The position numbers were made by a program, and so were the translations under genes. Positions 2,787-12,629 of a stretch of DNA of 64,000 nucleotides are shown here, piece by piece; the first letter of the stretch is position 1; each line of letters begins with the position of its first letter. The stretch spans positions 62,001 to 126,000 of the forward strand of contig CAIMFK010000003.1 in NCBI GenBank assembly GCA_903840315.1, given 5' to 3'. The DNA is from an uncultured Candidatus Saccharibacteria bacterium (GTDB lineage Bacteria > Patescibacteriota > Saccharimonadia > Saccharimonadales > UBA4665). Below the pieces are notes generated by a model, which worked only from the letters and a program-made list of their open reading frames with translations, was not told where the DNA came from and did not search any database.

Positions 2787-3053
2787 CTATTTACGGAGTC
2801 CGATTTTTTGGATTAAATCTAGATATGCCTGGCCGTCTTTATCGGCTAGATACTTTAATAGTCTTCTTCTTCGTCCGACCATCTGTAATAAAGCTCTTCT
2901 TGCTGAAAAGTCTTTTTTAGAAACCTTTAGGTGCTCAGTTAGCTCTTTAATTCTTTCAGTTAAAATACCAACCTGAACTGCAACAGATCCAGTGTCTTTC
3001 TTGTTTACTTGTAGGCTGTCTACTAAGCCATTTTTCTTCTCACGAGTTATCAT
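2787..3053 (-). CDS. rpsO: 30S ribosomal protein S15
   Basis: Primary 16S rRNA-binding protein of the small subunit platform. The 88-residue length is standard. The family signature is clear: TGS at 22-24, QV-x-x-LT-x-RI-x-x-LT-x-HL, then RR-x-LL-x-x-VG-x-RRRLL-x-YL. It sits between truB and pnp on the same strand. The conserved bacterial order truB-ribF-rpsO-pnp is kept except that ribF is absent, which fits a reduced CPR genome that does not make FAD from riboflavin at this locus. Confidence 0.97.
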
Positions 3054-3107: not shown

Positions 3108-3803
3108 TTATTCATTATTTATATCTTGAGTAATTAATTTCTGTTCTAGGTTATCAGAATCTATATCGCTAATTGCGTAAGATTTACTAATATCATAGTC
3201 AGCTATAGAAGTCCTTCTTATGTGGGTCGCATAAGCTCCCACTCCTAGTTTTTCCCCAATATCATTTACTAGTGATCTAATATAGGTGCCGCTACTTACA
3301 CTAGTGGTAAAGCTAATATGAGGATATTCATAAATTACTTTGTCTATGCTGTATATTTCTACTGGCCTGGATTTTAGTTCAACTGCCTTGCCTTCCCTAG
3401 CTAACTTATAGGATCTAACTCCATTTATCTTAATTGCTGAATATGCCGGAGGAATTTGGTCAATTTTACCAATGTAGCTAGAGATGGACTGTTTGACCTT
3501 CTCTTCAGATGGTTCTTCATCTGAAACACTAAACTTTTCACCCTCTTCGTCTCCGGTGCTAGACTTAACTCCTAATCTCATCTTTACTTCATATGTCTTG
3601 TCTTTTTTGGTTAGATAATCGGCTTTTTTTGTAAATGAACCAATTAATAGAATCATGAGTCCGCTGGCAAGCGGATCAAGCGTTCCGGCATGTCCAACCT
3701 TCACCTTCTTTGATTCAGCTATTCTCGCAAAAGACCTAATCTTAGCAACACAATCAAAAGAACTCCAGCCTTCTGGTTTGTCTATTAATAAAATTCCATT
3801 CAT
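3108..3803 (-). CDS. truB: tRNA pseudouridine-55 synthase
   Basis: Isomerises uridine 55 in the T-loop of tRNAs. The 231 residues start with GILLIDKPEGWSS. The catalytic aspartate motif GHAGTLDPLASGLM is at about 38-51, and the later RSYKLAREG, KSRPVEIY and SSGTYIRSLVNDIGE blocks match the family. The C-terminal PUA domain is essentially missing, as is common in short TruBs. The start ATG at 3803 lies only 7 nt downstream of TAGAAT, so the mRNA is probably leaderless. That promoter lies inside the 52-bp repeat that borders the chemotaxis island. Confidence 0.96.
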   Translation of the reverse strand: MNGILLIDKPEGWSSFDCVAKIRSFARIAESKKVKVGHAGTLDPLASGLMILLIGSFTKKADYLTKKDKTYEVKMRLGVKSSTGDEEGEKFSVSDEEPSEEKVKQSISSYIGKIDQIPPAYSAIKINGVRSYKLAREGKAVELKSRPVEIYSIDKVIYEYPHISFTTSVSSGTYIRSLVNDIGEKLGVGAYATHIRRTSIADYDISKSYAISDIDSDNLEQKLITQDINNE

Positions 3804-3804
3804 T

Positions 3805-3856
3805 CTTGGGATTCTACACTAATATTTTAAAACAAAGTAATTACTAGTTAGTTGGT
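3805..3856. repeat. 52-bp direct repeat, copy 1 (truB side of chemotaxis island)
   Basis: Bases 3805-3856 are identical to 10900-10951 in the same orientation, by direct comparison of the two stretches. This copy contains the truB -10 box (TAGAAT on the minus strand, 3811-3816) and, at its other end, the last two codons and stop of the distal CheY gene. It is the left boundary of the putative chemotaxis island. Confidence 0.95.
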
Positions 3857-4246
3857 TGGTTCGAAGCGTTTCTCTGAAGTACCAAGTACTTCCTTAGCTT
3901 TATTTATAATGTCGGAAGTTGAAGTCTTATCTTTCGTGAAATAAGCAACGATAGGTCCTGCGCTCATTACCTCTGCACCCTTAACATCCGCAGCTATACT
4001 GGTAAGCATGACGACAGGAATGTTTTTCAATTCATCATGTTTTTGTTTTGCCGAGAGGACTTCTTCTCCTGTCATTACGGGCATAACCAGATCCAGAAAA
4101 ACTAATTGTGGCGGACTCGCTAGCATTTTATCCATAGCGTCTTGACCGTTTTCAGCGGTCTCAACTTCAAACCCACCTTGAGTTAATGCTGTCTGATATA
4201 TTTCCCTAAAAAATTCTGAGTCATCTACGACGAGTACTTTAGTCAT
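3848..4246 (-). CDS. CheY-like single-domain response regulator (distal)
   Basis: A stand-alone receiver domain of 132 residues. The acidic pair is D8-D9, the phospho-acceptor is D52 (in LDLVMP), the conserved Thr/Ser position is T82 (VMLTS) and the lysine is K105 (YFTKDK). Expected to be phosphorylated by CheA and to act on the motility machinery or as a phosphate sink. The gene is last in the chemotaxis operon, 7 nt after cheD. Its final two codons and stop fall inside the 52-bp repeat, as though the original 3' end had been replaced at the insertion point. A TATAAT lies 6 nt upstream of the ATG but overlaps the end of cheD, so it may be fortuitous. Confidence 0.9.
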   Translation of the reverse strand: MTKVLVVDDSEFFREIYQTALTQGGFEVETAENGQDAMDKMLASPPQLVFLDLVMPVMTGEEVLSAKQKHDELKNIPVVMLTSIAADVKGAEVMSAGPIVAYFTKDKTSTSDIINKAKEVLGTSEKRFEPTN

Positions 4247-4253
4247 AAGAGTA

Positions 4254-4757
4254 TTATATTATCTTAACGAGCTCAGTGTCAAATGTATCATCTGTTTTAA
4301 CCTGCGCACAGGTAATGGTAACTTTACCGTTTTCGAGCTCAAATAAAACACTTCGTGCCCTACCTCCCCCTATTTCCTCGCCCATAATAGGAATTTTTAA
4401 TGTAGTCAGTAGTCTTTTAGTTTCTTCTATATTTCTTTTTCCAATGCTGCCATTGCTGTCTTCGGGGCCGGTAAACATCTGTGCTCCGCCAGCTATTTTT
4501 GCAATTAGATCGGTTAATTGAATATTTTTAGCAATAAATTGTTCAACGACTTGATTCACCGCCGTATCAACGTTTCTTAGAGAATTAGACAAATCATTCT
4601 CTTCTCTGGGTAACATGCAGTGAAGTAATGCGCCTATTTTAGCTTGAGGAGCGTATAGGCAAATAACAATGCAGGAACCTATGCCAATGGTTGAAAGTAC
4701 GTCTGGGGCACTTGCAATCGCATAATCTGCAGTTGGTACTTGAATTATTCTCGACAT
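4254..4757 (-). CDS. cheD: chemoreceptor glutamine deamidase CheD
   Basis: Deamidates glutamines on chemoreceptors and binds CheC in adaptation systems of the Bacillus/Thermotoga type. The 167-residue protein has the CheD catalytic layout: T23 and C29 in STIGIGSCIVICLY, and H46 in ALLHCMLP. These correspond to Thr, Cys and His of the characterised enzymes. The later KIAGGAQMF and GGGRARSVLF blocks also match. It lies 1 nt downstream of cheC, the usual CheC-CheD pairing. Cytoplasmic. Confidence 0.94.
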   Translation of the reverse strand: MSRIIQVPTADYAIASAPDVLSTIGIGSCIVICLYAPQAKIGALLHCMLPREENDLSNSLRNVDTAVNQVVEQFIAKNIQLTDLIAKIAGGAQMFTGPEDSNGSIGKRNIEETKRLLTTLKIPIMGEEIGGGRARSVLFELENGKVTITCAQVKTDDTFDTELVKII

Positions 4758-4758
4758 G

Positions 4759-5343
4759 TTAGAGCTTTGTCAGATCTTTACTTTTTGAAATTATTAGATT
4801 TGTTGTGTCGTTATCAAAAATAAAGACCATTGAAAGTGGAATTTTACCTGCCCCAATTGAAAGGCTAACCTGAGCGCACAGAAGGTCTGCGTTCGTCATA
4901 CCTACCTCACTCACTATTTCATTAAGAATGGCTCTCGACATGTCTGTCGCAGCGGTTGGAACAGACTGCATTAATTTTAATGATAAAAGTCTTGCTATGC
5001 CTCCGAGACACGCACCCGCAATAATATTAGCTATTTCTCTGAGAGCATCCATACGCATATCTTTATCAACTTCCACTAAAAGCTTTGCTGAATCTTCAGG
5101 CTTCATCAAAAGGACTACCGCCCCCTGGCCATCACCTAGGATTCGAATAAATACGCTGTCTTTAATTTCATCTGCTTGCCCAAGGCTGTCAGCCACGAAT
5201 TCCATTTTTTGCATTATGATCTCAGGTTTAGTAACAATTGTTTTTTGTCTGAGAATATTCTCAATTGGGCGCACCGTTTTTTGGGCCATAATATTGGCGG
5301 TTTCTCTTAGTAAATCTTTTGAAAATGAGTCAAGAGTTTCCAT
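4759..5343 (-). CDS. cheC: CheY-P phosphatase CheC, two active sites
   Basis: Dephosphorylates CheY-P and partners with CheD. The CheC/FliY active-site pattern [DS]-x3-E-x2-N-x22-P occurs twice in 194 residues. The first is D10-x3-E14-x2-N17 followed by a proline 23 residues on; the second starts with DALREIAN near residue 98 and ends at the proline of QSVPTA. Both are intact, which is the true CheC arrangement rather than the one-site CheX form. The start codon overlaps the cheA stop by one base (TAATG), so translation is probably coupled. Confidence 0.93.
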   Translation of the reverse strand: METLDSFSKDLLRETANIMAQKTVRPIENILRQKTIVTKPEIIMQKMEFVADSLGQADEIKDSVFIRILGDGQGAVVLLMKPEDSAKLLVEVDKDMRMDALREIANIIAGACLGGIARLLSLKLMQSVPTAATDMSRAILNEIVSEVGMTNADLLCAQVSLSIGAGKIPLSMVFIFDNDTTNLIISKSKDLTKL

Positions 5344-6968
5344 TATTGTATAAAGCTCCTTGGATTAATAAGTAAAATACTGCGACCATCACCGATTATT
5401 GTTACTCCTGAAAAATAATCAACATCTTTAATTAATTTCGGAAGTGGCTTAATGACCGTCTCAATTGCTGAAACGATTTGATCCACCGCTAGTGCAATCT
5501 TTTCGCCATCGATATTTAGTATGACCAGATAAGCATTTTTACTTGAATCACCGTTGTTCTCCGCGTAATTAAAGCGAACAACTGGAATTTCTTGGTCTTT
5601 GTAGCGGAAGGCTTCTTGGCCTGCGCTATTTATTATTTCAATATCAGATATTCTCAGAGAAATTTCAACTCCCGCCGCAACGAGTGCGTAGTCTTGTGAT
5701 CCAATATGAACGATTAATGTTCTAACGACCGATACCATTAGCGGAAGCTTAAGGATAAAAGTCGTTCCCTGGCCCTTTGCAGTCTCTATATCTATCGAAC
5801 CACCAAATTCTTCGATCGTTCTTTTGACGACCTCAAGACCAACGCCACGTCCAGAAATAAGGCTTACTTCATTAGCGGTCGAGATACCGGAAAAGAGAGC
5901 TTTTCGTAACCCGATTTGGTCGTTACTAGCAACTCCAGATTTTTTTGCGACAGCTTCCCAGTTTATACCATCTCCATTATCTCTAACTTCAACCACAGCA
6001 AAATCACGATCAGCTCGCGCAGAAATTGTTATTATGCCCTTTGATCCGATTCCATGGTCAGCTGCATTACGCACAAGGTGTGTCAAAGGTTCGTCAAGAC
6101 GTTCTACGATAGTTCTGTCGAGTTCCAGATCGCCACCTTCAATCTTGAGCTCAATCTCTTTGTTGAGCATTCGGCCAATATCACGCACTGTTCGCGGAAA
6201 ATGATCAAAAACCATACTGAGTGGTACGGTACGAATTTTCATTATTTGAAACCGTATCACCTCAATTATTTTATCTAATTTGTCTTGAGCTTGAGACAAT
6301 AATGGATCATCTAGATCTTTGAGTAATGTCTGCATAGTAAGCCGATCAACCATTAACTCTTCAAGTGATCCAATTATGTTATCTAGTTGCTCAACTTTAA
6401 CGGGGATTGTTTTTATAGACAGTTTTATGGGTTCAGTTTCTTTGTATTCAGGCTTTGGGGGTGCAGCAGTGGTATTTTTTTTGATTTCAACTTTGGGAGC
6501 GGGTGTTGCAGCTTCTGCTAAAGGGGCAGTCTCCTGCTGCTCACTCTTTTGCAAATGCTCAGTTTTGCCTGCTCCAATAGTTGCAACGCCGGCTGCCTTT
6601 TTCAGCTCTTCAATGAGTGTTTCGTTACCCTGTTCAACTCCTTCGGCTTCAATTTTCTGAACGGAAGTAGTGAGTGCATCGAGCGATGCGAATAAAAGAT
6701 CCGCAAGCGCAGGGTCTACTTTTTTACCATTTTCTTTAATTTCATAAAAAACATCTTCGACTACATGGCATAGATAGCCAGTTTCCTTAAAGCCCATTGC
6801 AGCACTTTGACCTTTTAGTGAATGAGCTGCGCGAAATATTTCGTTTATTGCTTCATTGCTAGTGGGTTCCTTCTCAAGTTTAAGTAGCTCCGTATTGAGT
6901 GTCTCAAGATACTTTTTTGCAGTTGTAACAAATAAGTCCTTATATTGGGCGACTTCATCGCTATTCAT
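5343..6968 (-). CDS. cheA: chemotaxis histidine kinase CheA
   Basis: Receptor-coupled histidine kinase that phosphorylates CheY and CheB-type receivers. Domain order over 541 residues: HPt domain with phospho-histidine H49 (AAHSLKGQSAA); a low-complexity Ala/Pro/Glu linker about 125-180 where a P2 docking domain would normally be; dimerisation helices about 185-255; the ATPase with N-box NAADHG (301-306), DNGDG (330-334) and GRGVG (373-377); and a CheW-like regulatory domain 410-541. The protein is short because P2 is missing. Overlaps cheB by 8 nt and cheC by 1 nt. Confidence 0.97.
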   Translation of the reverse strand: MNSDEVAQYKDLFVTTAKKYLETLNTELLKLEKEPTSNEAINEIFRAAHSLKGQSAAMGFKETGYLCHVVEDVFYEIKENGKKVDPALADLLFASLDALTTSVQKIEAEGVEQGNETLIEELKKAAGVATIGAGKTEHLQKSEQQETAPLAEAATPAPKVEIKKNTTAAPPKPEYKETEPIKLSIKTIPVKVEQLDNIIGSLEELMVDRLTMQTLLKDLDDPLLSQAQDKLDKIIEVIRFQIMKIRTVPLSMVFDHFPRTVRDIGRMLNKEIELKIEGGDLELDRTIVERLDEPLTHLVRNAADHGIGSKGIITISARADRDFAVVEVRDNGDGINWEAVAKKSGVASNDQIGLRKALFSGISTANEVSLISGRGVGLEVVKRTIEEFGGSIDIETAKGQGTTFILKLPLMVSVVRTLIVHIGSQDYALVAAGVEISLRISDIEIINSAGQEAFRYKDQEIPVVRFNYAENNGDSSKNAYLVILNIDGEKIALAVDQIVSAIETVIKPLPKLIKDVDYFSGVTIIGDGRSILLINPRSFIQ

Positions 6969-7581
6969 TTGCCATGCTCCAGAGTTTAATCGCGTCCGGA
7001 ATTTCTTTAAGCGAAAGTGATTGATCGGCTAAATGGCTAGCAATTATTGCGTGCGGCATACTCGAAATTTCTGCCGTAATTTGGTCTTGCACAATAGTGT
7101 GACCTCCAAATTGCTTCAGTGTTCGCATTCCTTCTAAGCCGTCCTCCCCCATACCCGTTAAAATAATCCCGAGAGTTTTTTCACCAAATATTTTTGCAAC
7201 AGATTTCATGAGTATGTCAATTGAAGGAGTAAGAGAATCGTCTGACGTAAGGAGGTGAACGCGCAGCACGTCGTTATCGTCTTTTACGATCTCCATATTT
7301 CCATCCCCGGGCGCTACATAAATAACACCCTCCTCGACGATTAGTCCGTCTGAGCCAAGTTGGATATTAATATCAAACTTGGATTTAAGCAGTTTTACGA
7401 AGTCGGGTAAAAAATTTGCAAGCATGTGTTGTGCGATGAAGATTGTCGGAACTGACGTATCGTTTAATTCATCGAAAATAGTCGTAAGAGCTTTTGGCCC
7501 TCCAGTTGATGAGCCAATCACAATAGCCTTCTTAGGACGAAGGTCAGTGGATTGTCTTGTTATGCTACTGGAGGATGCCAT
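6961..7581 (-). CDS. cheB: CheB-type methylesterase without receiver domain
   Basis: Hydrolyses glutamyl methyl esters on chemoreceptors. The 206 residues hold only the catalytic domain, with the Ser-His-Asp triad at S25 (GSSTGGP), H52 (AQHM) and D147 (TGMGEDG). The N-terminal receiver of canonical CheB is absent, and a separate 117-residue receiver gene lies 13 nt upstream, so the two may act in trans or the receiver may simply be the chemotaxis CheY. No cheR methyltransferase gene is present in the window, so the substrate methylation must come from elsewhere or the enzyme works only as a deamidase. Overlaps cheA by 8 nt. Confidence 0.93.
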   Translation of the reverse strand: MASSSSITRQSTDLRPKKAIVIGSSTGGPKALTTIFDELNDTSVPTIFIAQHMLANFLPDFVKLLKSKFDINIQLGSDGLIVEEGVIYVAPGDGNMEIVKDDNDVLRVHLLTSDDSLTPSIDILMKSVAKIFGEKTLGIILTGMGEDGLEGMRTLKQFGGHTIVQDQITAEISSMPHAIIASHLADQSLSLKEIPDAIKLWSMANE

Positions 7582-7594
7582 TACGTTAGGGCTC

Positions 7595-7948
7595 CTACGC
7601 CAATGTGTCTATCATTGCTATCACTTCAGTTGCATCGTAGGGCTTCACGAGATACCCACGTGCACCTAATGACTTGGCTTCTTCGATTATTTCTTTTTGA
7701 TCGACGGAAGAAATAATTGCTATAGATTTTGCCGATGAACCGATTTCTTTCAAGACTTCTATACCATCTTTTCCGGGCATAATAATATCAAGGAGCATGA
7801 CATCGGGTTGCATTTGATCGAATTTCTTAAGTGCATCATTACCGTCTACCGCCTCATCGAGTTCTGCATCACTATATTTACTTTTTAAGATGATATTTTT
7901 GAGAATTGCCCGCATGAAGGCGCTGTCGTCTACAATTAATATTTTCAT
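7595..7948 (-). CDS. cheY: CheY response regulator
   Basis: A 117-residue receiver very close to classical CheY: acidic pair D7-D8, phospho-acceptor D54 (MLLDIIMPGKDG), Ser at the Thr/Ser position (AIISS) and K102 (LVKPYD). It is placed between cheW and cheB, so it could be the main motor-control CheY or the detached receiver of CheB. Six nt separate it from cheW, and CTTTT-free A-rich spacers around it give no separate promoter. Confidence 0.94.
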   Translation of the reverse strand: MKILIVDDSAFMRAILKNIILKSKYSDAELDEAVDGNDALKKFDQMQPDVMLLDIIMPGKDGIEVLKEIGSSAKSIAIISSVDQKEIIEEAKSLGARGYLVKPYDATEVIAMIDTLA

Positions 7949-7953
7949 TTTAC

Positions 7954-8490
7954 TTACTCCTCTTTAACTATAGTATCATTTGTCTGTTCAGATGTTACGT
8001 GCTCAATTTCTCGTTGTACTGACTTGGTGATGATGGCCTCGAGGTTCAGAAAAAGCAGAACATTATCCTTATTTTTGTCGCCCTCGGGAAGTATTACTCC
8101 CGAAATGTACTCAGCATCAACTTTTGATTTTATGAGCTTAGGGGCTACCTTAAATTCACTCTCTGCATAAGAAGTGATTTCCTGAATTGAAGTCACAAGC
8201 ATGCCTACTATCTCCTCATCATTTCCGGGCGCATCAATAAGAATGATATATGGTCTTGGATCTTCCTTGTTACCAATATTGAGAATAGTTTCAAGATCAA
8301 TAATGGGAACAATTTTTCCACGAATGTTAATGATTCCTGAAATATAGCTACTACTATTCGGAACCGGGGTTATGGTATCAACTTTAGCAACTTCTCGGAT
8401 TGAATGAATATTAGCGGCAAAGGTTTCATTTCCAACCTCGAAGACTACTACCTGTGTCATTTTTACCTGAAGTTTGTCATCGTCTTGCAT
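7954..8490 (-). CDS. cheW: chemotaxis coupling protein CheW
   Basis: Adaptor linking chemoreceptor tips to CheA. The 178-residue protein shows the two-lobed SH3-like CheW pattern: VVVFEVGNETFA at the start of the fold, IREV at 31-34, and the receptor/CheA interface motif NIRGKIVPIIDL at 55-66. An extra acidic tail of about 20 residues follows the fold. Could alternatively start at M11 (MTQVVVF), since the first ten residues are polar and not part of the fold. Lies 4 nt after the chemoreceptor gene. Confidence 0.95.
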   Translation of the reverse strand: MQDDDKLQVKMTQVVVFEVGNETFAANIHSIREVAKVDTITPVPNSSSYISGIINIRGKIVPIIDLETILNIGNKEDPRPYIILIDAPGNDEEIVGMLVTSIQEITSYAESEFKVAPKLIKSKVDAEYISGVILPEGDKNKDNVLLFLNLEAIITKSVQREIEHVTSEQTNDTIVKEE

Positions 8491-8494
8491 AGTA

Positions 8495-10462
8495 TTATTG
8501 TGATCCTGGCGCCTTAGTATCTAAAGGAGTTTCTGATCTGTTTTCTAACTCAGGAAGTGAAGGAAGATCAAGATTAGATTCTTCTTCTTTTTTCGGTTCC
8601 TCTATTTGAGTTTCTGGTATATTGGCATGGCGTTCATTGAAACTTTCGATAGATTCTTCAACCCGGGGTCCAGTATCTGAGCCCCTTTTGTTATTAAGTA
8701 TTTCTTCTACGCGCTCACCTGCAAGCTTTTGAAGGCTCGCAGATAATGAGGCTAATTCATTGGCTGCTGCGGCTACTTGTTGGTTTGAGGCAGCCTGCTG
8801 TTCTATCGAGGCAGCCAATTGTTGTACTCCAGCGGCGCTTTGGTTTGCGACACCAGAAATAGCTTTTACGTTGGCATTAATTTTAGTCACAGTTCCAACC
8901 TGTTTCACTGTTCCTTGAGATAATTGCTGAATTTTCATTGATGTTTCTTGAGCAGCTTGTGCAGCGTTAACACTTGACGTACTTATTTCCTCAACTATCT
9001 GGCGAATATTATCGGCACTCTTGGCTGATCCTTCCGCTAGTTTTCTAACTTCATCTGCTACTACTGCAAATCCCCTTCCGGCATCACCAGCTCGGGCTGC
9101 TTCAATTGCTGCATTAAGTGCAAGGAGATTTGTTTGTTCGGAAACATTTGTAATTGCGTCAACAGCAGTACCAATTTTTTCAGAAGATATTCCTGCATTT
9201 TGAGAAATTTTAGAAGTCGTTATTGCGGTTGATGCCGCTTCTTGTGCTGCAGCAGAAATCTGCTCAATGGTGCCTGATAATTCGCTAACAGATTTAGCCG
9301 CTTGTTGTGCTTGGTTTGATTGTTCTAATGCGCCACTTGCAATTTGCTTGGAAACTGAAGCATTTTGTATTGATGCACTTGATGCTTGCTGGGTGGTTGC
9401 CGCCAATGAGTGACTAATTTCTGTTATTTTGTTAATTGCACCTCTAATTGGATTGAGGATCATACCTGAAATAGAACGACTTAAGAAATATGCAATCACC
9501 GCAATTACAATAATTACTCCAGCTAAGATACTGAGCGCTGTTGTGGTTAGCTTTGTGGCCGGTTCGAGTACCGCTGAAGTTGGTTCAGTGGCTACAAGTG
9601 TCCAATTAAGCGCATTGTTCGCACCGTACTTGCCGAGATTTGCGTACCCCGATATCACCTGAGCTCCTGTGCTATCTTTGTATTGAGTGATTCCTGAAGT
9701 ATTTGGATTAGTGATTGCCGATGACAAAACAGAGGAACTTTTGGTTTCTGAGTATGGTGTAAATGCTTTTTCGCTCGGTAATTTTGAAATTAGCACTTGG
9801 CCCGTCGCGTCTACAATACGAGCGTGTTTCCCTCCTACGAGTTGGGCGTCTATTCCTGCAATCAAATCATTAAAACTAGATGTTTTAACTTCACCAACAA
9901 GGACTCCAACCACGTTTCCACTAAGATCAGTGAGGGGTGTTTCTGCTAGAAAAGCTGGTCCTGTATCCCCCGGGTAAGCATTTGCGAGGTATACTGAACC
10001 ATTGGATGCCGTAAGGGCTTGCTTAAAAACATTGTCATTTGCATCGGTTTGACCATAGTAGCTTTGGTATGTGTGGCCCCCATCACCCTCGGGATCGCTA
10101 TTACCGATTGGTTGGCCTATCTTGTTGTATATGTTTATTGCATTAAAAATATTTGAACTATTCACCGTACTTTTAAGGCTTGCATCAATTAAAGGACTAT
10201 TAGTTGTAAGGAAAGCATTGTCTGCCGTTGCTGCTGTGAGGTTAATTACGCCCTGCATGTATGTTTTTGTTTCCGTTACCGCAATTTGGGTATTTGAGTT
10301 GAGGCTATTTTTGGAGTTACTAAGAAGTGTGTTATTGAATTGAGATATTAGGTATGCAAAAAGAAGAACTAATGGAATAAGTGAAATCGCCAGTGAAGCG
10401 CCGATTACCCTAGTTTGAAAGCCAACATTTTTTATTTTTTTTGCCCACGAATTGTTTTTCAT
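8495..10462 (-). CDS. methyl-accepting chemotaxis protein (chemoreceptor)
   Basis: Membrane chemoreceptor of 655 residues. TM1 is about 17-41, an extracytoplasmic sensor of about 260 residues with the length and pattern of a double-Cache domain follows, TM2 is about 307-328, then a short HAMP-like segment and a long coiled-coil signalling domain 355-585. The receptor tip that contacts CheA/CheW is clear at 442-480 ([28 protein letters not shown]). Q/E/A-rich helix faces are candidate CheB/CheD modification sites. A polar acidic tail ends the protein without an NWETF-type docking peptide. First gene of the operon, with GGGGAAG 4-5 nt before the ATG and its own promoter. The ligand cannot be predicted. 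Confidence 0.96.
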
Positions 10463-10730
10463 TACTTCCCCATCATTTAGACATATTAAAATTAGTTAAT
10501 CATATTACCATTAGCATTATTGTACCTTAAATACATGAAAACCAAAAGAAGTTATAAAGGGAGGCAATCCCCTACGGCGATGCGCAATCTTTTTGTGTAG
10601 AACGTATTACTGACGGGTACTTGCAACTGATGCAAGCGGTCTCCTTCAAGAAAGCTTATTGCTGATGAATATTGGGGATTTTTATTTGTACCAATATTTG
10701 CCAAAGGAAGGTCCAAATGAGGAGACGCGA
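10463..10730 (-). other. leader/intergenic region upstream of the chemoreceptor gene
   Basis: About 270 nt without a protein-coding gene on either strand. It holds the chemoreceptor promoter near its downstream end and a segment rich in short inverted repeats: CTTGCA/TGCAAG with a 5-nt loop at 10620-10636, and GGGA/TCCC at 10559-10571. It does not match the c-di-GMP-I or TPP riboswitch consensus that I checked by eye. A structured RNA is possible but unproven. Confidence 0.35.
10519..10547 (-). promoter_or_regulatory. predicted promoter of the chemotaxis operon
   Basis: On the minus strand, -35 TTTTGG (10542-10547), 17-bp spacer, -10 TACAAT (10519-10524). A start around 10512 would give a leader of about 50 nt with a good Shine-Dalgarno before the chemoreceptor ATG. 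Confidence 0.5.
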
Positions 10731-10895
10731 TTAAGCTATTTTTTTCTGTGCTGTCGGTGATTCTAGTGCGTAAAGAGTTTCTAGGTAAGCTAAGAATTGC
10801 AAAGGGCTTGGCAGTGTTAAGAATGGTATTTCTTTTTGGTAATTTTCTAATGATTTTTTTTGATTGGAAATATCGCCTTCAACTTTAGTGGTCAT
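10731..10895 (-). CDS. 54-residue ORF at the island boundary
   Basis: ATG at 10895 to TAA at 10731 encodes 54 residues, starting MTTKVEGDIS and ending TAQKKIA, with a helical-looking middle (PLQFLAYLETLYAL). No family recognised. There is no Shine-Dalgarno, but the ATG lies 10 nt after the TAGAAT box inside repeat copy 2, the same promoter that drives truB from copy 1. It could be a real small protein, a truncated remnant cut at the insertion point, or chance. Confidence 0.4.
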   Translation of the reverse strand: MTTKVEGDISNQKKSLENYQKEIPFLTLPSPLQFLAYLETLYALESPTAQKKIA

Positions 10896-10899
10896 ACAG

Positions 10900-10951
10900 C
10901 TTGGGATTCTACACTAATATTTTAAAACAAAGTAATTACTAGTTAGTTGGT
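10900..10951. repeat. 52-bp direct repeat, copy 2 (DHH side of chemotaxis island)
   Basis: Identical to 3805-3856. It contains the last three codons and stop of the DHH-like gene (TAG at 10939-10941), then the promoter-like TAGAAT (minus strand, 10906-10911) now pointing into the island. Immediately flanking bases differ from copy 1 on the inner and outer sides. Confidence 0.95.
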
Positions 10952-12528
10952 GGGGTCGGATTTATCATAGGAGGTGGAATTGGTGGTGGTGCAGATGGTG
11001 CGCCAGGTACTGATGTTGGTGCTGCACTAGGAACCTGAGCCGGAGGTACTAGGTTTGTAGGCAATGGCATGCTCATTGTTTGACCAGGAAACGAATTAGC
11101 CTTTGGGTGAAGATCATTGCCGAGGGGTAATGCATTAAAAGCTGCTGGAACTTGGTGATCTACCTGTGGTGCTAAATTAACTGCCTGTCTTGCAGATTCA
11201 AGACTTGGACTAGGTTGGCTATTTTGAATAACTGGGTTTGGTATTTGGTTAACCGGCGCTGGTTTTTGACTGCTCAAAATGTAGTTATTGTGGGAGTCCT
11301 GTCCAGTTGATGGTTTTTCTTCAAAAGCTGGATTATTAGCAACCGAATCTTGCGTAGATGCTGGGGGATTGGATAAATAGCCGCCCTGTCTTGAGTTAGT
11401 TGTAGTCAGTGGATTCGAGACGACTGGTGGCTTTGCTGGCTCTGTTTCCGACTCGTCGCCAAGTTTATGTAAAGTTCCCCTATCATCAATTCTAATCTTC
11501 TCAATTTCTTCCTGTGTAGATACAGATGGATCATCCGCATGCTCTATATCTAGTTCGCCTAAGTTAGCTTTAGCTTCTGCCTCAGCTTTTTTCTGGCCAG
11601 CTGACTTAATTAAGCTTGTAGGCCCACTAGTCGGAGTGACCGTCTGAGATCTTACGTCTATAACCGGCGGAAGAGTCGTTTGTACTGGTGCTGAAGCAGG
11701 CTTAGGTTCAAGCTGATCAGCTACAAGTCTCTGGTTTGCGCCAGAAGATAAAAGCTGAGCACTGACGCTGAGTGAAGTTGGTGATGTTTTTTCATTGGCA
11801 AATCTTTTTGTACTAGATACAATTCCAGTCAACCATGATGTGGCGATTTGACCATCGATTAAATCTTTAGCACCTAGATCATTCGCAATTAAAGTTACCA
11901 TTTCAGATAAGCTACTTGCAGTTGTGTCCACCCAATTTAGATTGCCAATAGTTAAAGGTTCTGGGGTATTCGAAAGAGCAATAATAGTGGCGTCGTGAAG
12001 AATTTTTCCATGAGCCATTATTGCCTGATCAATTTCTTCCTGTTTTTTTACTCCTAGGGCAACAATAACATCTACGTTAAGATCACCTAGAGTAAAATTC
12101 AAATCATGTTCACTTATAGATGTCTTATACGGAGTAATAAAAATACGCACCAGATTGTCCTCAACCTTATAGCGAAGTTTATCGGCCTTAGCTTTGTCTA
12201 TGGCAATAATAAAGTCCTGTAAACTATCCGTATTTTTCTCAATGGTTTTCTCGGGTTCCAAAAATTGAATAATTGGGGGTATTTCACCGCTGAATACTGC
12301 GCTAGCATGCTTTTTCATTTTACCCATTAGCAAAGTGAATCCTAATAAAGCAGTTAATTGATCAACTGTTGGGTTATTGCTAACAGTAACAAGAATGTTA
12401 TAAGACTCATTTAATTTAGCAGCAATTTTAGCCCTGTTTGAAACGGTTGAAGATGCAGTAATAGGTGCTGGGGCTGGGGCCACTGGAACACCTGAGGTTT
12501 GATTTAATTGTTGATTTTGATTATCCAT
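10939..12528 (-). CDS. degenerate DHH-family phosphoesterase-like protein with proline-rich tail
   Basis: A 529-residue protein. Residues about 35-240 have the fold pattern of NrnA/RecJ-like DHH phosphoesterases (ILVTVSNNPTVDQLTALLGF matches the first motif region), but the metal ligands are gone: the usual PDGDA is PTVDQ, and the DHH motif region reads PYKTSISEHDLNF. The remainder, to the C-terminus, is low-complexity and Pro/Ser/Gln-rich, ending in a polyproline-like stretch. Position supports the assignment: DHH genes precede truB in many bacteria, and here only the chemotaxis island separates them. Probably a non-catalytic RNA- or nucleotide-binding relative; nanoRNA turnover is presumably done by the orn product at 22.9 kb. 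Confidence 0.65.
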   Translation of the reverse strand: MDNQNQQLNQTSGVPVAPAPAPITASSTVSNRAKIAAKLNESYNILVTVSNNPTVDQLTALLGFTLLMGKMKKHASAVFSGEIPPIIQFLEPEKTIEKNTDSLQDFIIAIDKAKADKLRYKVEDNLVRIFITPYKTSISEHDLNFTLGDLNVDVIVALGVKKQEEIDQAIMAHGKILHDATIIALSNTPEPLTIGNLNWVDTTASSLSEMVTLIANDLGAKDLIDGQIATSWLTGIVSSTKRFANEKTSPTSLSVSAQLLSSGANQRLVADQLEPKPASAPVQTTLPPVIDVRSQTVTPTSGPTSLIKSAGQKKAEAEAKANLGELDIEHADDPSVSTQEEIEKIRIDDRGTLHKLGDESETEPAKPPVVSNPLTTTNSRQGGYLSNPPASTQDSVANNPAFEEKPSTGQDSHNNYILSSQKPAPVNQIPNPVIQNSQPSPSLESARQAVNLAPQVDHQVPAAFNALPLGNDLHPKANSFPGQTMSMPLPTNLVPPAQVPSAAPTSVPGAPSAPPPIPPPMINPTPPTN

Positions 12529-12599
12529 ATTTTTGTTTAGCTTTGTTAAATCTAAATTAGCATAAATACTATAGCTTGTCGAGTATTTTCAGCCCACTC

Positions 12600-12629
12600 T
12601 TTACAAAAGGGGTAATTCTTTAGTATAGT
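12600..12629 (+). promoter_or_regulatory. predicted rpsT promoter
   Basis: -35 TTTACA (12600-12605), 18-bp spacer, -10 TATAGT (12624-12629). It is followed by a leader of about 28 nt with AAGGA 9 nt before the rpsT ATG. Confidence 0.55.

Follow-up and report, generated by a model that had tools for sequence, protein, structure and literature searches.

Chemotaxis operons of the Bacillus/Thermotoga type are characterized by CheC and CheD, and the operon described here likewise brings together genes for a methyl-accepting chemotaxis protein (MCP), CheA, CheW, CheY, CheB, CheC and CheD. Unlike operons of that type, it occurs without CheR or a flagellar switch, and its CheB lacks a receiver domain. 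Its CheA is 34% identical to a Paenibacillus protein. A literature search, assessed through titles and abstracts and some passages of text, found no report of a chemotaxis operon in Saccharibacteria.

The manner in which this operon is joined to its chromosome also has precedents. To judge from the title of their 2008 paper, as cited in PMC8116780, Hulter and Wackernagel reportedly described double illegitimate integration during transformation of Acinetobacter baylyi. As far as that title conveys, our locus is similar in having no long homology, joints of only a few bases and arbitrary ends, but differs in that a 52-bp target is duplicated, the insert is 7 kb long and carries a whole operon, and the event is natural and occurred in the Patescibacteria. 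MMBIR-like template switching is also comparable, both in the short shared bases at the two joints and in re-entry behind the exit point, which would account for a local duplication.

The window, which is the whole 64,000-nucleotide stretch analysed, belongs to a Saccharibacterium (G000) whose congeners in our sample are G001 and G002. The genomes most informative about the operon, G146 and G052, represent one genus (g51) of family f18, a family of Saccharimonadales other than that of G000; we refer to the G052 locus as L054 and to the G146 contig as L053. In our judgement, a foreign fragment of ~7 kb, probably taken up by transformation, was in all likelihood joined through microhomology beside truB, duplicating a 52-bp target, and the operon that it carried retained its function. 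The relevant features of the window are as follows.

444-2579: pnp, after rpsO
2787-3053: rpsO, after truB
3108-3803, minus strand: truB, recipient chromosome
3805-3856, no strand: truB-side copy of the 52-bp repeat, which leaves the truB promoter in place
3848-4246, minus strand: terminal CheY-type response regulator, in which Asn and a stop from the repeat replace the donor-type KIESM
3852-3856, no strand: microhomology ACCAA (minus-strand reading) at the downstream junction, within a wider imperfect match
4254-4757, minus strand: CheD
4759-5343, minus strand: CheC/CheX-type phosphatase
5343-6968, minus strand: CheA, with Hpt, HATPase_c and CheW domains
6961-7581, minus strand: CheB, methylesterase domain only
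7595-7948, minus strand: first CheY-type response regulator
7954-8490, minus strand: CheW
8495-10462, minus strand: MCP, with a weak dCache match
10463-10551, minus strand: stretch in front of the MCP gene that contains a TACAAT/TATAAT element, kept in both L053 and L054 and probably the promoter of the operon
10552-10899, minus strand: remnant of the donor's 268-aa gene, from about codon 153, with one frameshift in an A run and ending at the original stop
10731-10895: 54-codon ORF, within that remnant
10900-10904, no strand: microhomology CCAAG (minus-strand reading) at the upstream junction, common to the recipient and the donor-type locus
10900-10951, no strand: DHH-side copy of the 52-bp repeat, consisting of the recipient's DHH end and truB promoter and now preceding the insert
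10939-12528, minus strand: DHH-like (NrnA-type) gene, recipient chromosome, with its last two codons and stop inside the repeat

All complete genes between the repeat copies are chemotaxis genes. The initial annotation had described the interior as chemotaxis genes plus a 54-codon ORF, and the chemotaxis part of that description stands. The ORF is not a gene in its own right, being the first part of a truncated, frameshifted remnant that extends out of frame to ~10552; its P-S-C-M-T-T-K corresponds to P-S-N-M-T-T-K in the 268-aa gene of L054. The surrounding gene order had been given as infB-rbfA-DHH-truB-rpsO-pnp, of which we recover truB-rpsO-pnp but not infB-rbfA-DHH-truB, with a divergent rpsT located upstream of the DHH-like gene. 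The DHH-like protein has no more than a remote similarity to the DHH/NrnA family. Orthologues of this DHH-like gene adjoin truB in L004, L005 and L008. A scan for sigma-70 promoters returned 18 promoter-like sites against 16.8 in shuffled sequences, which is no excess, and was left out of the argument.

The direct repeat reported at the outset is confirmed by exact-repeat comparison in the window: all 52 bp of positions 3805-3856 recur unchanged at 10900-10951, identity ceases at once on either side, and no other exact repeat of at least 25 nt is present. A search of the whole genome (751 kb, 98.4% complete) returns these two copies and no others, even with 3 mismatches permitted. On the side of the downstream joint, similarity between the copies stretches to 59 nt at 97% when mismatches are allowed. 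The repeat takes in the end of the DHH-like gene (its final two codons and its stop) followed by the intergenic region with the presumed truB promoter, and it also provides the last codon (Asn) and stop of the terminal cheY. Both congeners have a counterpart TTAGTGTA-type element with the truB start within 7-8 bases, a spacing that would suit a leaderless promoter. Since the promoter part of the 52 bp precedes truB in both congeners, the repeat is, on this sequence comparison, the recipient's own DNA in duplicate and not a part of the donor, whose locus type lacks it.

Relatives of G000 reveal what the site looks like when empty. The nearest empty sites available come not from the same species but from the two congeners, whose TruB proteins are 63-64% identical to that of G000; in both, the DHH-like gene lies directly before truB with no insert, and neither CheA nor CheB has a match in either genome. 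This arrangement is the DHH-truB adjacency that the initial annotation anticipated in relatives, and it matches the normal locus that is rebuilt on paper by deleting the interior and one repeat copy. The finding named in advance as contrary, an island in all relatives, did not occur. Among 393 Saccharimonadales genomes sampled, CheB of the island kind (82-100% identical) is encoded only by G000, G146 and G052. Three other genomes of the G000 family (L067, L068, L069) contain only distant CheB-like domains (27-30%) in ORFs of 683-1074 aa, and the operon was not found in four other family f18 genomes, only one of which is at least 90% complete. Of 380 genomes sampled across the phylum, some 3% encode distant CheB proteins (28-45%; L070-L082), so that chemotaxis has a sparse and scattered distribution in the Patescibacteria.

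The operon is much closer to its counterparts in family f18 than its chromosomal surroundings are. In tblastn comparisons with G146, the MCP, CheW, CheY, CheB and CheA are 96-100% identical over their full lengths, whereas for 34 other proteins of the window the median identity is 47% and no value exceeds 79%. Island chemotaxis proteins are 82-94% identical to those of G052. When 685 kb of G146 was compared with 166 kb of G000, the DNA background lay at 60-79% identity and at least two tracts reached 95% or more: one is the operon, which is 96.8% identical along 5,304 bp, and the other consists of two P-loop kinase-like genes located elsewhere. Between G146 and G052, the operon is 76.1% identical, which falls inside the 75-85% range that dominates between those two genomes and makes descent of the operon within their genus plausible. 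The tetranucleotide composition of the island is also closer to that of G052 and G146 than to that of G000.

L053 is a lone 5.3-kb contig that covers only positions 5233-10533 of the window and is possibly mis-binned; it breaks off within CheC at one end and short of the MCP gene at the other, and a search of that bin for the missing ends of the operon found none. The conclusion of transfer is independent of L053, as the full G052 locus, located in a 102-kb contig, is enough. The contrast in identity and the distribution together settle that a transfer took place, and these comparisons leave well supported the proposal, made initially from the window itself, that the operon is an acquired insert; its source lies in a different family of Saccharimonadales.

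L054 represents an intact locus of the source type, in which the 268-aa gene is followed by the operon and then by a second CheY gene. DNA similarity between the window and L054 spans positions 3852-10895, which are the inner edges of the repeat; relative to L054, the island begins inside the 268-aa gene and stops just short of the cheY stop codon. Read on the coding strand, with a slash at the joint, the window has AATCCCAAG / CTGTATGACC at the upstream junction, L054 has CTTATTCCAAG / TAACATGACC, and the sequence before truB is AATCCCAAG / AATGAATGG. At the downstream junction, the window has CGAACCAACCAA / CTAACTAG, L054 has TGAACCAACCAA / AATAGAAAG, and the sequence at the DHH end is CGACCCCACCAA / CTAACTAG. 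The source type and the recipient share just 5 bp at each joint, outside which the flanks of the donor type do not match the 52 bp. For a random joint between these genomes, the probability of sharing at least five bases is P = 0.0066, so two such joints are unlikely to have arisen by chance, although five bases per end is a modest microhomology and the donor flanks are read from a G052 proxy that is 76% identical to the island. The insert is an arbitrary fragment: the 268-aa gene is cut, the tail of cheY is cut and the second cheY (L054 13136-13540), which directly follows the G052 operon, was left behind. The 268-aa gene that precedes the operon (L054 5591-6397) has no Pfam, NCBIfam or PDB match, and is possibly part of the donor's chemosensory locus.

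These joints bear on two explanations put forward in the initial annotation, both of which presuppose that the donor carried the repeat or enough of it to be used. If an island had integrated site-specifically and its integrase had since been lost, the 52 bp would be attL and attR. The insert is indeed bounded exactly by the direct repeat between intact chromosomal neighbours, and the observation that no integrase lies within was correct, every full gene there being a chemotaxis gene. However, there is no tRNA or tmRNA at the insertion site and no recombinase gene within the insert, the insert ends cut arbitrarily into two donor genes, and L054 lacks the repeat core, 5 bp per end excepted. Neither do plasmids or phages point to a mobile element: the MCP has no plasmid match, and CheA has only distant matches among phage records (31-34% in the best five) and none among viral contigs. 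This explanation is accordingly very improbable. The other proposal, a circular molecule bearing the 52 bp and inserted by a single homologous crossover at the truB promoter, has in its favour that such a crossover leaves exactly two copies of the shared segment. Yet the 52 bp are recipient sequence missing from the donor type, in which only 5 bp per junction match, and a Campbell crossover at those 5 bp would produce a repeat of 5 bp and not of 52. A circle formed first in the recipient lineage, with the 52 bp, requires an extra unseen step. Because L054 lacks the repeat, neither explanation is supported, and we regard the circle, too, as quite unlikely. Transposon insertion was also considered and rejected; as had been argued, 52 bp is too long for a usual target duplication, and there is no transposase in the insert and no inverted repeat of at least 25 nt in the window.

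An artefact of assembly or amplification that fused DNA of two organisms deserves attention, since the genome consists of 15 contigs and probably derives from a metagenome or a single cell, L053 is itself a short fragment, and amplified DNA forms chimaeras at short matches. Against such an artefact, the island sits within a 171-kb contig, ordinary reads exceed 52 bp, assemblers neither join sequences at 5-bp matches nor generate a duplication of recipient DNA, and the remnant gene carries a frameshift; an artefact is therefore a very slight prospect. That the operon was inherited vertically and lost from almost every relative is extremely unlikely. This view draws on the occurrence of the operon in another family of the order and on nothing further, and is refuted in the main by the contrast between identities of 96-100% and a median of 47%; the operon is also absent from both congeners and from 390 of the 393 sampled Saccharimonadales, and a truncated donor gene lies at the joint.

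The reading that we favour is thus microhomology-mediated joining of a foreign fragment. A linear fragment of ~7 kb with arbitrary breaks, originating from a chromosome of family f18, genus g51, close to that of G146, would have entered an ancestor of G000, most likely through natural transformation. In S. epibionticum, a cultured Saccharibacterium, ComEC-dependent natural transformation has been demonstrated (PMC10633639), which makes entry as naked DNA plausible. A recipient strand may then have been joined to the fragment at CCAAG in the DHH-truB intergenic region, and the far end of the fragment would have returned to the recipient at ACCAA, a point 52 bp behind the first joint, so that the 52 bp came to lie on both sides. 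In a replicative version, replication would leave the recipient at CCAAG, copy the fragment and return at ACCAA. In an alternative chemistry, the fragment would be ligated to a staggered break and the 52-nt ends filled in. The template switch and the staggered-break fill-in are not distinguished by the sequence. The 52-bp duplication implies re-entry behind the exit point; a double crossover in the normal order on one chromosome would yield a deletion instead. We infer the joining mechanism (template switching or staggered-end joining), the route by transformation and, as discussed below, the output to pili. The duplication would have been nearly harmless, as the DHH stop is kept, cheY is given a new stop, the truB promoter is kept and the operon probably brought a promoter of its own.

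Relative to L053, the island genes have dS values of 0.08-0.16, and the four that carry synonymous changes (MCP, CheW, CheB and CheA) have dN/dS ratios of 0.03-0.13. Such low ratios indicate that the transferred genes have been kept under purifying selection and retain their function. Several differences between the two 52-bp copies would be expected at this dS if they were neutral and as old as the split from L053; there are none, which hints that the insertion may be younger than that split.

The core chemotaxis set is present, with MCP, CheW, CheY and a CheA that has phosphotransfer and kinase domains. CheR (PF01739) is absent from all five genomes searched, including G000, G146 and G052, with seven controls positive; FliM/N flagellar switch proteins were searched for and are likewise absent. 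Pilus-type ATPases are present. Most likely, the operon would feed chemosensory signals to type IV pili, and CheD and CheC would act instead of the usual methylation cycle. The systems of G000, G052 and G146 all share CheB without a receiver domain, CheC and CheD, and all lack CheR and the flagellar switch.

This locus is a well-resolved natural case of microhomology-joined operon transfer between families of Saccharimonadales, although the type of event is already known. Joints, donor-type locus (76% identical) and empty site are all resolved to the single base, and few natural gene transfers in uncultured ultra-small bacteria can be followed so closely. Chemotaxis, which 3 of the 393 sampled Saccharimonadales encode in this form, has moved between families in one piece and is apparently still under selection. 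The combination of microhomology and target duplication with no mobile-element genes is a signature that can be searched for in other Patescibacteria.

More tentatively, Patescibacteria might swap whole operons between families by loose DNA uptake and homology-free joining, with target duplication as the mark; we consider this generalization possible but doubtful. If it is true, a complex trait such as chemotaxis could enter genomes of less than 1 Mb in one step, and G000 and G146, with their second near-identical tract, would be a live example. That tract, L109 (G000:C8) 11464-12608, corresponds to L099 (G146:C18) 325-1464 and comprises the two adjacent P-loop kinase-like genes. Identity is 95% over the whole tract and close to 100% in the second gene, and the surroundings of the tract differ between the genomes, an indication that the two lineages have exchanged DNA recently and repeatedly. 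A search for a duplication flanking L109 11464-12608 was negative. Beside this tract, L109 10763-11406 contains a Doc-like toxin gene and an AbrB-like partner, as named by sequence reading.
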